From: Halorubrum salsamenti
GTDB lineage: Archaea; Halobacteriota; Halobacteria; Halobacteriales; Haloferacaceae
Assembly (NCBI RefSeq): GCF_007671685.1
Contig: NZ_VCNL01000001.1
Location: 682,001 to 746,000, forward strand
Reading direction: 5' to 3'
DNA: 64,000 bases
This document shows, one piece after another, positions 20,050-55,791 of the stretch (within the stretch, counting starts at the first letter, position 1; each line of letters begins with the position of its first letter). The notes under the pieces are model-generated. The model did no database searches and was not told where the DNA came from. It saw nothing but the letters and a program-made list of their open reading frames with translations. Made by a program: the position numbers and the translations under genes.

Positions 20050-20235
20050 GGTCGGCTCGACTCGGGCACGGGTGATATCGGTTTCGGCAATTATCGCCAG
20101 TGTCAGAGGATAACACTCATACCGAACCGGCGAGCCGGCAGCGGGGTGACGGCGCGTCGTCGACAGCGGATCGACGGCGGTCGCCCCCGTCGTTTTCCGC
20201 CCGGACTTATACGTGGGCGCCGACAACGACGGCCC

Positions 20236-20271
20236 ATGACACTCGGACGCGCGTTGGAGGTGCGTCGATGA
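20236..20271 (+). CDS. Possible leaderless leader peptide, 11 aa
   Basis: A CTTATACG box at about 20203-20210 places the transcript start near 20236, where an ATG opens MTLGRALEVRR followed by TGA. The TGA (20269-20271) overlaps the ATG of the PH-domain gene (20268). Its last codons contain the Shine-Dalgarno sequence of the next gene. Translation is plausible by the leaderless route but unproven; it could simply be 5' UTR. Confidence 0.35.
   Translation: MTLGRALEVRR
20256..20262 (+). promoter_or_regulatory. Shine-Dalgarno sequence for the first PH-domain gene
   Basis: GGAGGTG ends five bases before ATG 20268. A strong, well-spaced Shine-Dalgarno is unusual in this window, where most starts are leaderless, and it settles this start codon over an upstream in-frame ATG at 20100. 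Confidence 0.7.
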
Positions 20272-20732
20272 CGACACAGACGCTTCACCCTCGCGTTCAG
20301 GTCGTGTGGGTCCTCCGTGCGGTTCTCATCGCGGCGGTGTTGACGGCACCGTTCGCCGGCGCGGTCTACTTCGATCGGCTCCCGGAGTGGGTGCCGATCG
20401 CCGCCGGTGCCGCCTTCCTCATCCTCGGCGTGGGACACGCGCTCCTCCGGTACCGTCGCTGGAGCTACGAGATCCGGGAGGACGCGCTGTACCTCGACCG
20501 CGGCGTGGTCACGCAGGTCCGGACGACGGTGCCGCTGGTGCGGATCCAGCACGTCGACTCCCGGCGCGGTCCCGTCGAGCGCGGCGTCGGGCTCGCCTCC
20601 TGCGTGGTGTACACGGCCGGCTCACGCGGCGCGGACGTTCGGATTCCCGGGCTCACGCCCGACGGGGCGAGCGACCTCCGCGAGGAGCTGAAGCGACTGG
20701 CCATCCGCGCGGACGGGGAGGACGCGGTGTGA
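20268..20732 (+). CDS. Bacterial PH-domain (bPH2, DUF304) membrane protein, YdbS-like
   Basis: 154 residues. Two transmembrane helices come first (VLRAVLIAAVLTAPFAGAVYF and WVPIAAGAAFLILGVGHALL), followed by a bPH2 domain: YEIREDALYLDRGVVTQVRTTVPLVRIQHVDSRRGPVERGVGL in pieces. The pattern matches Bacillus YdbS, which works together with the larger YdbT encoded next to it. That is exactly the arrangement here: the following gene overlaps by four bases. YdbS/YdbT confer resistance to certain antimicrobial peptides in Bacillus; whether that holds in archaea is unknown. Translation starts from a Shine-Dalgarno-led ATG. Confidence 0.8.
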   Translation: MTTQTLHPRVQVVWVLRAVLIAAVLTAPFAGAVYFDRLPEWVPIAAGAAFLILGVGHALLRYRRWSYEIREDALYLDRGVVTQVRTTVPLVRIQHVDSRRGPVERGVGLASCVVYTAGSRGADVRIPGLTPDGASDLREELKRLAIRADGEDAV

Positions 20733-50687: not shown

Positions 50688-53186
50688 CTAGTCCGCGCGT
50701 TCGCCCGACGTCTCGCGGAGTCCCCCGTCGAGCCCGAGTCCGACCCGGTCCCCGTACCGGTCCCAGACGACGACGAGCGAGGGGACGAGCAGGATCGAGT
50801 AGAGGTAGGCGTACAGCACGCCCAGCGCGAGCAGCACGCCGAAATCGCGGAGCAGGGGGATCACGGCGAGCCACAGGACGCCGAGCCCGCAGACGGTCGT
50901 GAGCATGCTCCCGGTGAGCGCGCCGCCGGTGCCGGCGATGGTGATGTCCAGCGCCTCGTCGATCGCGTGTCCCGCCTTGTACTCGTCGACGAACCGGTGG
51001 ACGAAGTGGACGGTGTAATCCACTCCGAGCCCGATCGACACCGAGAGGATCGGGGCGTTGATCGGCGTCAGCGGAATCGAGAACAGCCGCATCGACCCCA
51101 CCAGCAGCCCGACCGTGACGAGCACGGGCACGAGGTTGAGCAGGCCGTAGACGGCCTTCCCCTCCAGGTAGGCGTACGACAGCGCGAGGAAGACCGCCGT
51201 GAGCGCGAACGCGGCGAAGAGGCTCCGGATCGCGGACTCGGTGAGCCGATCGATCACGGCCTCGTTGACGACGAGGCTCCCGGTCGGCACCGCTTCCAGC
51301 GGGGTGCGCTCGGCGAGGTCGCGCACGTCCGCGACCGCCTCGGAGTTGTCGACGCCCGGTCGGATCGTGTAGTCGATCCGCGCGCTTCCGCGGTCCGCCG
51401 CGAGGTAGCCGCGGGCCTGCCCCTCGGCCGGGGAGTCGAGCAGGGCGTCGTACACCTCGTCGACGTTGCGGTCGGGCACTCCGGTCCCGAGCCGATCGTT
51501 GCGGTTGACGACGGCGGCGAATTCGGGGTCTCGCGCCGCCTGGTCCTCGATGACGGTCACGACGCTGGTCGAGGCCGCGCGCCGCTCGTCGGTCGTCGCG
51601 AAGGTGTCGGGCGGGTTGCGCGTGGTCCGGTCGATCAGCTCTAAGGCGTCGTCGTCTCGCACCGACTGGTCGACGTACAGCGTCACGCTCCCGACGAAGT
51701 CCTGCTCGAACTCCTCCTCGAACAGCGTGAGCACGCGCAGGAACGTGTAGTCGGTCGGCGCGAACGGCTCGGGGAGGTTCGAGTAGGTCTCCAGCCGGTC
51801 CTCGTCCGGGAAGAACGCCTCCTCGGAGAACTCCGTGTTCACCCCGGTGCCGTACGCGCCCCCGACCGCGCCGCCGACGAGGAGCACGGCGACGACGACG
51901 ACCGGCGCGACTCGCGAGAGGTCGACGCCGACGCGCAGCACGCGGCCGAGCCGCGAGTCGCCCGCGCCGAGCGCGGTCGTGCCGAACTCGGGGATCGGGA
52001 GGCGCTCGCGCCAGCGGTCCGCGAGCACCTTCGCGGCGGGCAGGAAGATCCCGAAGACGACGAGCGTGAACACGATCCCGGCGGCGGCGACGATCCCGAA
52101 GTCCCGGTTGGGTTCGAAGGGGCTGGCCACGTTCGAGACGAGCCCGAACACGGTGGTGATCGTCACGAGCAGGAACGCGATGAGCAGCTGGTCGGTCGTC
52201 GTCCGCATCGCGGCCGCGATCCCCAACCCTTCGCCCCGCTCCTCGCGGTAGCGGTTGACGATGTGGATCCCGAAGTCGATCCCGACCGCGAGCAACAGCG
52301 GGAAGACGGTGACGAGCGAGTCGGAGAACGGTATCTGTGCGTACCCCATGAACCCGAACGTCCACAGCAGCGCCATCAGGAGCGCCACGAGCCCGATACC
52401 CATGTCGATCGGATCGCGGTAGGCGAACACGAGAAAGCCCAGAATCAACAGCAGCGCTGCGGGGAACACGATGATCGCGGTGTCGCCGAGCAGCGCGGTG
52501 ATCTCCGACTGGAGCACGCCGTCGCCGAAGAGGATCGCGTTGTCGCCGGCCTCGTTGCCCGGTACCGAGTCGACGACGCCGACGCTGCGCGTCTGGAGCT
52601 CCGTCACCCGGGCGGTCGTCGCCGCGTCGGGCACGTCGTAGGTGATCCCGACGATGGCGGCGTCGGCGGTCTGGGCGGTCGGGTTGTAGTCCACCGACAC
52701 CTGCGCCGCCACCGCGCCCGCCGCGTCGGCGTCGGCGATGGCCCCCCGAAGCTCCCGCGGGCTCGCCTCCGCCACCGCGTCACGCCGCTGGGCGGCGGTC
52801 TCCGCCGTCGGGTCGAGCCGGCGAGCGATCGCGTCCGCGTGGCTCGACGTCGACCCCACCCGGAGCGTCGACCGCGACTCCAGTCGCTCTTGGGTCTCCA
52901 AGATCCGTATCAGCGTCGGCCGGGAGAGCACGTTGTCGTCGGTGACGATCACCTGCGCGGCGGTGGCCGACCCGCCGATGGATGTCTCGAACTCCTCGTC
53001 GATGTCGTCTAACGCCTGCTGGGCCGGGATGTCCTGCGTGAACTGGTCGGCGCCGGCGCTCGTCTCGATACCGCCGAGCCCGCCGACGGCGACGACGCTG
53101 ATCAGGAGGAAGACGGCGATCACCGCGCCCGGCCGCTCGGTGACGAACTCGTCGACCCGTTCGACGAACCGGTCGGCGGCGGTCAC
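50688..53186 (-). CDS. RND/MMPL superfamily exporter (HAE3-like)
   Basis: 832 residues, GTG start. Topology is one N-terminal helix (GAVIAVFLLISVVAVGGLGGIET), a large extracytoplasmic domain, five helices, a second exterior domain and six more helices, the usual two-fold RND layout. Sterol-sensing-like signatures FPLLLAVGIDFGIHIVNRYREE and ILSVSIGLGVDYTVHFVHRF carry the conserved Asp/His. AMRTTTDQLLIAFLLVTITTVFGLVSN is the matching helix. The substrate is unknown; in archaea such pumps may export lipids or drugs. It lies 84 bases downstream of a surface accessory gene in the same direction, and a TetR gene diverges from the pair. Confidence 0.88.
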   Translation of the reverse strand: MTAADRFVERVDEFVTERPGAVIAVFLLISVVAVGGLGGIETSAGADQFTQDIPAQQALDDIDEEFETSIGGSATAAQVIVTDDNVLSRPTLIRILETQERLESRSTLRVGSTSSHADAIARRLDPTAETAAQRRDAVAEASPRELRGAIADADAAGAVAAQVSVDYNPTAQTADAAIVGITYDVPDAATTARVTELQTRSVGVVDSVPGNEAGDNAILFGDGVLQSEITALLGDTAIIVFPAALLLILGFLVFAYRDPIDMGIGLVALLMALLWTFGFMGYAQIPFSDSLVTVFPLLLAVGIDFGIHIVNRYREERGEGLGIAAAMRTTTDQLLIAFLLVTITTVFGLVSNVASPFEPNRDFGIVAAAGIVFTLVVFGIFLPAAKVLADRWRERLPIPEFGTTALGAGDSRLGRVLRVGVDLSRVAPVVVVAVLLVGGAVGGAYGTGVNTEFSEEAFFPDEDRLETYSNLPEPFAPTDYTFLRVLTLFEEEFEQDFVGSVTLYVDQSVRDDDALELIDRTTRNPPDTFATTDERRAASTSVVTVIEDQAARDPEFAAVVNRNDRLGTGVPDRNVDEVYDALLDSPAEGQARGYLAADRGSARIDYTIRPGVDNSEAVADVRDLAERTPLEAVPTGSLVVNEAVIDRLTESAIRSLFAAFALTAVFLALSYAYLEGKAVYGLLNLVPVLVTVGLLVGSMRLFSIPLTPINAPILSVSIGLGVDYTVHFVHRFVDEYKAGHAIDEALDITIAGTGGALTGSMLTTVCGLGVLWLAVIPLLRDFGVLLALGVLYAYLYSILLVPSLVVVWDRYGDRVGLGLDGGLRETSGERAD

Positions 53187-53270: not shown

Positions 53271-54959
53271 CTACCGCCGCCGGTACCAGACGACCGCTCC
53301 CGCGCCGGCGACCACGACGAGCAGGCCGACGACGAGCGCCGTGATCGGGAGCCCCCCGTCGTCGGTGGACTCGGTCACCTCGATCGGGTACTGGCTCACG
53401 TCCGAGATCCGGTCGTTGCCCCGCTCGTCGTTGTACCGGAAGTCGAGTTCGATCGGGTGGGTCTCGACGCTGGCGCCGGGCGCGGCCGACACCTCGAACC
53501 AGATATCCGTCGACTCGCCGGGTTCGAGCTCGTCGACGAACGCCTCGTCGTTGGGGGCCGAAAGCGGGCTGTCGGCGTACAGCCCCGCGTTGATCGACGA
53601 GAGCGTCTCGGGCCGCTGGTTCGTGATCTCGAAGGAGATCCGCCGCGTCTCGCCGGCCGGCACCGTCGTGTTGTCGGCGACGAGGTCGAACTCGGGCTGG
53701 CGCGGCGCGACCTCGATCCGACGGGTCTCGTCGACCGCGATCGTCGAGTCGCCGCTCGTGTACTCGGTCGTGAACCGGAACTGTCGCGGTCCGGGGTCGG
53801 CGTTGCCGTTCACGTCCGCGTCGAAGGAGAACTCGACCGACTCGCCGGCCGGGATGTCGGGGAGCGCGTACCGGCTCTCGCCGAGGCTCACCCGCTGGCT
53901 CTGCGGGTCAGCGACCAACACCGCGTCGTCGACGTCGAGCGGTCCCTCGTTCGCGAGCGTCCCGGAGACGGTTCCCGAGTAGCCGACTTCGAGGGTGCCC
54001 TCGACGTCCTCGACCGAGAACGACTGCTCGGGGGCGGGGACGACGCCCGCTCGCGAGGAGGGGGCCGTCTCCTCGATCCCGTCGCGGTCGCGGTAGTCGA
54101 CCGTCGAGACGAACGCGTACGCTCCGCCGCCGAAGTCCGGCGAGACGGTCGAGTCGAACGTCACGGTCCGGTTCTCGCCGGGCTCCCAGTTCCCGACGAA
54201 CGCCTCGCCGCTGCCGTCGCCGCCGATCACGGCGCCGCTGCCGGTCGCGGTCCCGGTGACGACCGCGTCGCGGGCGGCCTCGTCGCCGACGTTCCGAAGC
54301 GTCGCGGTCACGTCGCCGCTCCCGCCGACCTGCGCGTCCGTCTCGGTGTCGAGGATCGCGAACCGCGCGCCGTCGTCGACGACGATCGTGACGTCAACGC
54401 TCTCCGTCCCCGGTGAGTCGTAGTGGTTGTCCTGACTCGGTACGATTGTTCGAGTATACCGGTATCGCGCCGTGACCTCGATATCGTACTCGCCGTCACT
54501 CACGTCATCCGGAACGGAAACGCTGATAGGAACTGCTGTTGGAACGCCAGTCGGGACGTCTCCGATCGCCGCTTCTCCTGAGGTGACGGAGAGGCGATCG
54601 TCCTCGGCCTCCGCTTCAACTTTGACACTACGCGCCGTCGTCACCCTGGGATCGAGTTGGTTCCCCATTTGCATCTCTCCGGAGTTGAGAAGGTCGACCG
54701 TGACCGTCGACTCCCCGCCGGACGGGACCGTCGGCTGAGAGAGGAACATGTCGATATCCGGAGATCCGCGGACCTGGCTCGCACCGGATCCGTTTGTCTG
54801 TTCAACGGACGCCCCGCTCCCCGCCAACGCTGCCTGCCCGCGGTCGGGTGTGTCGCCCGTCGCGGGCGCGGCCGCACCGGAGAGCGCGACGCCGGCGACG
54901 AGCGCTCCGGCAGCGACGAACGCGAGGACCAGCGTGCCGATCCGTGCGGCCCGGCTCAT
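53271..54959 (-). CDS. S-layer/NEW3-type extracytoplasmic accessory protein of the exporter
   Basis: 563 residues with a signal peptide/helix (RIGTLVLAFVAAGALVAGVAL), several beta-sandwich modules and a C-terminal anchor (LPITALVVGLLVVVAGAGAVVWYRRR). The modules share the COG1361/NEW3 pattern, for example GDVTATLRNVGDEAARDAVV, YSGTVSGTLANEGPLDVDDA and RISFEITNQRPETLSSI. In archaea this class of protein is found next to RND/MMPL exporters, probably as the exterior partner. ATG 54959 has GGAGGG five bases ahead and overlaps the stop of a 28-codon leader ORF. Same operon as the exporter (84-base gap). Confidence 0.8.
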   Translation of the reverse strand: MSRAARIGTLVLAFVAAGALVAGVALSGAAAPATGDTPDRGQAALAGSGASVEQTNGSGASQVRGSPDIDMFLSQPTVPSGGESTVTVDLLNSGEMQMGNQLDPRVTTARSVKVEAEAEDDRLSVTSGEAAIGDVPTGVPTAVPISVSVPDDVSDGEYDIEVTARYRYTRTIVPSQDNHYDSPGTESVDVTIVVDDGARFAILDTETDAQVGGSGDVTATLRNVGDEAARDAVVTGTATGSGAVIGGDGSGEAFVGNWEPGENRTVTFDSTVSPDFGGGAYAFVSTVDYRDRDGIEETAPSSRAGVVPAPEQSFSVEDVEGTLEVGYSGTVSGTLANEGPLDVDDAVLVADPQSQRVSLGESRYALPDIPAGESVEFSFDADVNGNADPGPRQFRFTTEYTSGDSTIAVDETRRIEVAPRQPEFDLVADNTTVPAGETRRISFEITNQRPETLSSINAGLYADSPLSAPNDEAFVDELEPGESTDIWFEVSAAPGASVETHPIELDFRYNDERGNDRISDVSQYPIEVTESTDDGGLPITALVVGLLVVVAGAGAVVWYRRR

Positions 54960-55042
54960 CTCCGCCCTCCGACGTCGGATCCCCCGGCTGCGACGCCGCA
55001 GCGACCGCCAGACCGCCCGTCGATTGCACCGGATCGAGTCAT
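54956..55042 (-). CDS. Possible leaderless leader peptide, 28 aa
   Basis: The CGCTTATGTTGC box at 55062-55073 puts the minus-strand transcript start close to 55042, where ATG opens MTRSGAIDGRSGGRCGVA... and a TGA at 54958-54956 overlaps ATG 54959 of the accessory gene (ATGA). Its last codons contain the ribosome-binding site. Leaderless translation is plausible but unproven. Confidence 0.35.
   Translation of the reverse strand: MTRSGAIDGRSGGRCGVAAGGSDVGGRR
54965..54970 (-). promoter_or_regulatory. Shine-Dalgarno sequence for the accessory-protein gene
   Basis: GGAGGG on the minus strand, five bases before ATG 54959. Same spacing as at 20256-20262, and like it within the 3' end of an upstream mini-ORF. 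Confidence 0.65.
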
Positions 55043-55075
55043 ACGTTCGTGTCGGACGCTCGCAACATAAGCGTG

Positions 55076-55095
55076 TTGAATGAACGTTCAATCAG
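55076..55095. promoter_or_regulatory. Probable TetR operator between divergent promoters
   Basis: Imperfect palindrome TTGAATGAACGTTCAATCAG with a perfect 10-bp core TGAACGTTCA (55081-55090). It sits between the minus-strand TATA box (55062-55073) of the exporter operon and the plus-strand TATA box GATATATAC (55100-55108) of the tetR gene, ideally placed to control both. Confidence 0.7.
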
Positions 55096-55128
55096 GATCG
55101 ATATATACTCGGTCCCGGTAGGTAGTCC

Positions 55129-55791
55129 ATGAAGGACCCCTTCGCGGAGCCGGCCGACACCCGGCAGGCGATCCTCGGAGCGGCGTTCCGCGCGCTCTGC
55201 GAGCACGGATACGCCGACCTCACGATCAGCCGGATCGGCGAGGAGTTCGACAAGAGCCCCTCGCTCGTCTATCACCACTACGACGGGAAAGACGAGCTGT
55301 TAGTCGACCTGCTCGGCTTTTTGCTCGACGGCTTCGAAGCGTCTGTCTCCGCGGGCGCGTTCGATATGACGCCACGCGAGCGGCTCGACACGTACGTCGC
55401 GGCGACGACCGATCCCGACTCGATCCACGGGGAATACGGACCAGACGGGCGGTTCATGACCGCCATTATCGAGCTTCGCACGCAGGCCGCAACCGACGAC
55501 GCCTACCGCGACCACTTCGACCGCAGCGACCGGGTGTTCGGTTCGTTCCTCGAACGCACGGTCCGGGAGGCGGCGGCCGAGGTGCGAGAGGCGACGCGAG
55601 CCGGAGAACGAACCGACGCGTCCGACGACGCGGTCCTGCCCGCCGAGGTCGCGTCGACGCTTCAGACGCTCGCGATCGGCGGAATGTTACGCTGGGCGAC
55701 GACGACCGACCGCGAGTGGACTGACGACACCCAGAGGGGGATCCGTCGGTACTTGGAGACGGTGCTCCCGAAGGTCGATCCCGACGCCTGA
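55129..55791 (+). CDS. TetR/AcrR-family transcriptional regulator
   Basis: 220 residues. The N-terminal helix-turn-helix is RQAILGAAFRALCEHGYADLTISRIGEEFDKSPSLVYHHYDGKDEL (in pieces; the SLVYHHYDGKDEL recognition segment is canonical). The ligand-binding domain is variable and ends RRYLETVLPKVDPDA. It diverges from the exporter operon with an operator in the shared promoter region, and is probably a local repressor that also represses itself. Leaderless ATG 55129 lies 21-29 bases after GATATATAC. Confidence 0.9.
   Translation: MKDPFAEPADTRQAILGAAFRALCEHGYADLTISRIGEEFDKSPSLVYHHYDGKDELLVDLLGFLLDGFEASVSAGAFDMTPRERLDTYVAATTDPDSIHGEYGPDGRFMTAIIELRTQAATDDAYRDHFDRSDRVFGSFLERTVREAAAEVREATRAGERTDASDDAVLPAEVASTLQTLAIGGMLRWATTTDREWTDDTQRGIRRYLETVLPKVDPDA

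Follow-up and report, generated by a model that had tools for sequence, protein, structure and literature searches.

A conserved leaderless-type mini-ORF overlapping the start of an exporter operon in Halorubrum as a candidate ribosome-delivering fore-cistron

Short reading frames that end on the start codon of the following gene are reported from mycobacteria, where RTG-started ORFs of 5-50 amino acids lie at the 5' end of leaderless transcripts and their TGA overlaps the next RTG (Shell et al. 2015, PMC4633059). In Hfx. volcanii, termination-reinitiation is described for gene pairs that overlap by ATGA or TGATG and whose upstream ORF contains an SD motif, the motif reportedly being common, but not essential, in such pairs (Huber et al. 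2019, PMC6728339). SD motifs of this organism are reported to be non-functional for de novo initiation and to help restart at overlapping pairs, with the extent of this help varying by gene pair (PMC6728339, PMC7531240), and the idea of ribosome delivery was restated in a 2025 review (PMC12548453). Most leadered transcripts of Hfx. volcanii are said to carry no SD at all (Kramer 2014). Two further systems come close, i.e. the uORFs of Hfx. volcanii, short ORFs of 15-31 amino acids reported ahead of normal genes (Babski et al. 2016, PMC4983044), and a bicistronic design for Corynebacterium, in which a leaderless fore-cistron with an SD is reported to feed the gene of interest (PMC10367133).

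The window, i.e. the whole 64,000-nucleotide stretch of Halorubrum salsamenti DNA that was analysed, contains a related arrangement on its minus strand. A mini-ORF of 28 codons (54956..55042, minus strand; product MTRSGAIDGRSGGRCGVAAGGSDVGGRR), which may be viewed as a leaderless-type fore-cistron, starts with the ATG at 55042 and ends with a TGA located within the ATGA of an accessory gene (53271..54959, minus strand; ATG at 54959). Its start is preceded by the TATA-like element CTTATG (55066..55071, minus strand) at -29..-24 relative to the mini-ORF ATG, a position inside the AT peak (-30..-25) of the called starts in a 400-kb sample of the same genome, and its tail carries the SD-like motif GGAGGG (54965..54970, minus strand) 5 nt upstream of the accessory ATG. 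The initial annotation had described a 28-codon leaderless-type ORF near a TATA box with its TGA inside ATGA, and this description is borne out. The accessory protein has NPCBM_assoc/NEW3 and CARDB-type domains as well as, by eye, a signal peptide and a C-terminal TM; as the signal peptide lies directly behind it, the accessory start is well placed. An MMPL/RND-family exporter is encoded downstream (50688..53186, minus strand). On the other side, a TetR-family regulator is encoded divergently (55129..55791, plus strand) behind a leaderless-type promoter of its own, with ATATATA at 55101-55107, and the near-palindrome TTGAATGAACGTTCAATCAG between the two divergent promoters (55076..55095; strand not applicable) is a probable TetR operator.

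All 52 Halorubrum genomes searched gave some match and 46 carry an orthologue, the six left out (G018, G021, G026, G029, G030 and G040) having paralogue-like best matches with 37-41% identity. The mini-ORF is present in every one of these 46 genomes. The distance from its ATG to the accessory start takes 13 distinct values between 80 and 230 nt, all in one phase (46/46). On a quick tree of the accessory proteins, in which 13 of the 43 inner branches have weak support, at least 13 length changes are needed to explain these distances, each of them a multiple of three; assuming that one change in three keeps the phase, the chance of 13 phase-keeping changes out of 13 would be ~6e-7, a rough value only, since full independence of the events is compromised by repeat slippage and by the weak branches. 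The mini-ORF frame is free of stops in all 46 genomes, as compared to 19 genomes with a stop in the accessory frame of the same stretch; the third frame contains a stop in all 46, which is uninformative as the mini-ORFs begin with ATGA. The accessory start takes the form ATGA in 37 genomes, GTGA in seven and TGATG in one (G043), i.e. stop and start overlap by 1 nt or 4 nt in 45/46 genomes, and the overlap is RTGA-type (ATGA/GTGA) in 44/46. In the remaining genome, G051, the accessory start reads ATGG and the overlap is gone, so that the mini-ORF extends to 115 codons and overlaps the accessory gene. Elsewhere the mini-ORF comprises 27-77 codons; 36 of the 46 products fall into the range of 27-49 amino acids, including the window copy with 28, and ten into that of 55-115. 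In-frame tandem repeats with 7- and 6-codon units are found in the mini-ORFs of G004 (L011/L033) and G022 (L028), where they lengthen the mini-ORF and leave the phase unchanged.

Outside the set of orthologues, 20 loci of paralogues or distant relatives of the accessory gene were read, 12 of them Halorubrum paralogues and eight from other genera. None of the 12 paralogues shows the layout at TATA spacing; two (L147, L150) have an 18-codon frame that ends in GTGA and lacks a TATA box, and the other ten have no such frame. Among the eight other-genus loci, one, an orthologue from the same family (L159, 51% identity), has the full layout, with TATA, a 35-codon mini-ORF, SD and ATGA all present, three (L160, L163, L166) have overlapping frames, and the remainder have none. 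The 29-codon frame of the Haloparvum relative (L052/L160, 43%) ends in ATGA, with the TATA roughly 75 nt off, whereas in L163 and L166 the right spacing is occupied by AT-rich stretches.

The signals around the mini-ORF were compared across the 46 genomes as well. No accessory start reaches a TATA score of >=4, as compared to 28 of the mini-ORF ATGs; the box of the window locus, CTTATG, is weak, and the score remains <4 in 18/46. GGAGG is present in the accessory SD window of 32 genomes, the remaining 14 windows mostly containing other G-rich runs. The palindrome recurs at 44/46 orthologous loci if <=3 mismatches are allowed, its distance to the mini-ORF ATG being 53 nt (54 nt in G041); it was not found at this threshold in G004 and G014. 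TetR matches were obtained at 18 of 21 named loci, and L033 (G004) and L037 (G014) give none. As G004 and G014 nevertheless retain both the TATA-like box and the mini-ORF, the mini-ORF seems to be independent of the TetR system.

Based on these findings we consider it likely that the mini-ORF is a leaderless fore-cistron that passes ribosomes to an SD-assisted restart by termination-reinitiation. To judge from the TATA spacing, the promoter next to the probable TetR operator is likely to start transcription at or beside the mini-ORF ATG, and ribosomes would be loaded at this ATG by the leaderless route. They would then translate the 28 codons into a peptide without detectable importance, terminate at the TGA, which shares bases with the accessory ATG, and restart on the latter, aided by GGAGGG. 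The mini-ORF would in this way give a translation route to a gene that starts ~80-230 nt inside the transcript. Delivery of ribosomes to the gene behind is the most likely role, and peptide-making less so, because related archaea keep the layout while the peptide drifts freely. It would not be the sole conceivable route for a leadered gene, as most leadered transcripts of Hfx. volcanii reportedly manage without an SD (Kramer 2014).

The drift of the peptide is evident from substitution patterns at the three codon positions. Pairwise differences at positions 1/2/3 amount to 781/692/836 among 17 sequences of 27 codons (721/572/595 once the ends are removed), to 530/495/571 among 11 sequences of 28 codons, and to 155/114/136 among five sequences of 57 codons, i.e. 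a third-position excess was not found in the mini-ORFs of these 33 sequences in three length groups, and the body of the mini-ORF is thus without visible amino-acid constraint. At the exporter locus the architecture is more conserved than the peptide sequence, and the parts of the mini-ORF that are kept are its ends, namely the start and a Gly-rich tail whose codons spell the SD. Selection acts on frame and overlap, not on the peptide, and the phase data are unusually clean. As the mini-ORF sequence is conserved at the PsmA-like genes described below, the unimportance of the peptide holds for the exporter locus only.

These data bear directly on the possibility that the mini-ORF encodes a regulatory leader peptide, with stalling or codon-specific arrest controlling the operon by attenuation. 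Such a role would agree with a mini-ORF that heads an operon beside a TetR regulator. Moreover, members of the 27- and 28-codon groups retain the opening codons (MTR, in one case MSG) together with some of the Gly-rich tail, and a weak structural hint may be seen in the RNA folds, in which the SD is paired somewhat more (0.73) than control windows are (0.64-0.68). The retained tail residues, however, coincide with the SD, conserved codons or residues of the kind expected for a leader-peptide attenuator were not found in the peptide body of the 33 sequences, and the length of the mini-ORF varies from 27 to 77 codons, or 115 in G051, so that we regard attenuation as unlikely.

The folds are likewise compatible with a partly hidden SD, as would be expected if the mini-ORF were a translated brake, i.e. 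if the accessory gene started de novo via its SD, a motif found in SD-like form before the accessory start in most genomes, and the mini-ORF lowered its translation. SD pairing exceeds the mean of its own leader in 32 of the 46 genomes, and a conserved RNA structure concealing the SD is weak at best. In Hfx. volcanii, SDs are reported not to bring about de novo initiation (PMC6728339; Kramer 2014). An exact stop/start overlap, retained despite at least 13 changes in length, is a requirement of coupling rather than of braking, which leaves little room for a brake.

Alternatively, the product might be a functional microprotein that cooperates with the exporter, in line with the occurrence of the mini-ORF at all 46 loci. 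Sequence, length and repeats vary freely without a third-position excess, which argues against a function of the polypeptide. Moreover, the peptides are mostly basic, with a median pI of 11.6, values >9 in 41/46 and a minimum of 4.6 (G051 being represented by its first 30 residues only), unlike the uORF peptides of Hfx. volcanii, for which a low pI is reported (PMC4983044). We therefore judge a microprotein to be quite improbable and return to the fore-cistron reading, which also extends to other genes.

A second mini-ORF of the window (20236..20271, plus strand; 11 codons, MTLGRALEVRR followed by the stop) overlaps the ATGA with which a gene for a small membrane protein begins (20268..20732, plus strand). 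This gene is presumably bPH2/YdbS-like. A CTTATA box (20206..20211, plus strand) precedes the mini-ORF, and the SD-like motif GGAGGT (20256..20261, plus strand) lies 6 nt upstream of the ATG at 20268, so that the identical five-base spacing that the initial annotation had ascribed to both examples applies to the exporter locus, but not to the second. Its view that chance is a less likely source of the repeated layout holds for both, with the phase kept at 46/46 exporter loci and the layout present in 30/30 orthologues read for the bPH2-like gene, which has a match in 52/52 genomes.

Further examples came from pattern searches in the same genome (G000), whose length limits exclude both window examples. 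With six bases after GGRGG there was no match, and with seven bases there were four, as compared to none in the reversed control. Three of the four are in frame and belong to genes that we name, by sequence reading, DacZ-like, CD-NTase-like and Tat-lipoprotein-like; the fourth (L145) is out of frame. The CD-NTase-like gene (L143, G000:C2:44731) has a 16-codon and the Tat-lipoprotein-like gene (L146, G000:C15:354155) a 21-codon mini-ORF, both ending in GTGA. The leaderless-type mini-ORF ahead of the DacZ-like gene (L144, L167-L196; G000:C12:589032-589660) has 14-26 codons, and a gene that we call PsmA-like, again by sequence reading (L237-L266; G000:C12:153955-154735), follows a MSERDTARAGDRR-like mini-ORF of 12-13 codons with a T-rich box. 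Both genes have matches in 52 genomes, and the layout was seen in 30/30 loci read for each, counts that are biased toward a match because the best-scoring among several candidate starts was taken. Of the DacZ-like loci 29 reach a TATA score of >=4 and G027 scores 3.8; six of these mini-ORFs are GTG-started and three end in TAG five bases past the A of the gene's ATG, eight bases into the gene. Among the PsmA-like loci the overlap is TGATG in G003. As at the exporter locus, the gene's own start has no comparable box, a TATA score of >=4 being reached at 0/30 bPH2-like and 0/30 DacZ-like loci. The sequence of the PsmA-like mini-ORF is conserved as well as its layout, and its peptide may have a role of its own. 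Another genus contributed 22 DacZ- and PsmA-like loci with 42-62% identity, which may be paralogues; none of them has an overlapping mini-ORF that reaches a TATA score of >=4. The PsmA-like genes in another genus (L267-L277, 11 loci) have a common leader, GTCAACGTGATACA, directly 5' of the ATG, and a TATA score of >=4 is reached at none of these 11 starts.

How frequent the layout is was estimated by genome scans, in which genes were called by a simple script of our own instead of a standard gene finder, so that some starts are surely wrong. Without an SD filter and at a score of >=3, a sample of G000 gave five cases at the right spacing, as compared to 1-6 at seven shifted spacings, and G042 gave eight as compared to 2-7, i.e. 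no enrichment. If an SD and an ATG start are required, 6/27 candidates in 1.2 Mb of G000 match, as compared to 0-2 at eight shifts; the PsmA-like gene is counted twice among them, and the SD-bearing, overlapping ATG mini-ORFs with a TATA at the right spacing thus belong to five genes. There is no excess in the same 1.2 Mb for GTG-started mini-ORFs with an SD (1/39 vs. 0-2) or for those without one (ATG, 8/111 vs. 6-14; GTG, 12/206 vs. 6-15). Counted per gene with ATG and SD, contig C1 yields 2/8 (control mean 0.58, maximum 2) and contig C12 3/16 (control mean 0.25, maximum 1; 24 wrong spacings), C12 being the independent part since C1 includes both loci that raised the question; G042 alone, with 2/9 (control mean 0.96, maximum 3), is not enriched. 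Without the SD, the per-gene counts are 2/24 in C1 (control 3.46), 5/63 in C12 (5.88) and 2/32 in G042 (2.46). The enrichment suggested at the outset is therefore obtained with the SD filter, for five genes in 1.2 Mb only, and not without it. Although open frames are frequent at high GC and the unfiltered scan shows no enrichment, an accident of base composition, in which an ATG near the promoter meets few stops and ATGA arises because the protein begins with Met-Ser/Thr, is practically negligible in view of a phase kept in 46/46 genomes over 13 lengths, of stops in 0 vs. 19 genomes in the two frames and of the independent recurrence, with the same conservation, at other genes.

The class of overlapping mini-ORFs is real, small and not bound to envelope proteins. 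A general way of starting envelope-protein translation, as put forward in the initial annotation, does not agree with the equal presence of the layout at the DacZ-like (di-adenylate cyclase) and PsmA-like (proteasome alpha) genes, whose products do not look like Sec substrates, and envelope specificity was rejected on these grounds. We may speculate, very tentatively and rather doubting it ourselves, that haloarchaea possess a small class of leaderless fore-cistrons, conserved within the genus, which would serve as a common translational entry for an exporter operon, a di-adenylate cyclase, proteasome alpha and a membrane protein, such that these would be translated by restart only and could be tuned jointly via leaderless initiation or ribosome recycling. 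For some genes, a leaderless mini-ORF whose stop falls on their start codon would be a simple solution, and the exporter and the other loci are places where the coupling can be tested. They also constitute a warning for annotation, as short ORFs of this kind may serve ribosome entry and not encode proteins.

Among the known systems, the small leaderless ORFs described as coupled in mycobacteria (Shell et al. 2015, PMC4633059) resemble the exporter mini-ORF in start codon and overlap, and would also do so in their position at the 5' end of the transcript, to judge from its TATA spacing, and some of them are reported to keep the architecture more than the peptide, just like the exporter mini-ORF. 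The window copy falls within their size class, whereas ten of its 46 orthologues fall outside. The mycobacterial ORFs are bacterial and reportedly rest on transcript mapping and ribosome profiling, whereas the present ones are archaeal and deduced from DNA sequence, and, unlike the ORFs as described there, the exporter mini-ORF lies behind a TATA-type promoter with a putative TetR operator. With the termination-reinitiation pairs of Hfx. volcanii (Huber et al. 2019, PMC6728339) it shares the ATGA/TGATG overlap and the SD inside the upstream ORF, but the upstream partners reported there are operon genes and not a leaderless-type mini-ORF with an unconstrained peptide. The uORFs of Babski et al. 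2016 (PMC4983044) are likewise short and precede normal genes; they are reported from UTRs of 150-250 nt and have a low pI, and the section that describes them mentions neither overlap nor coupling, whereas the exporter mini-ORF peptides are basic and end on a start codon. The Corynebacterium design (PMC10367133) combines the same elements, i.e. a leaderless fore-cistron and an SD, but is synthetic and bacterial. No description of coupled leaderless mini-ORFs in haloarchaea was found in titles and abstract openings of the papers to which searches of the open-licence PMC literature led. Taken together, the kind of layout is already known from these systems, and the haloarchaeal mini-ORF represents a further form of it.
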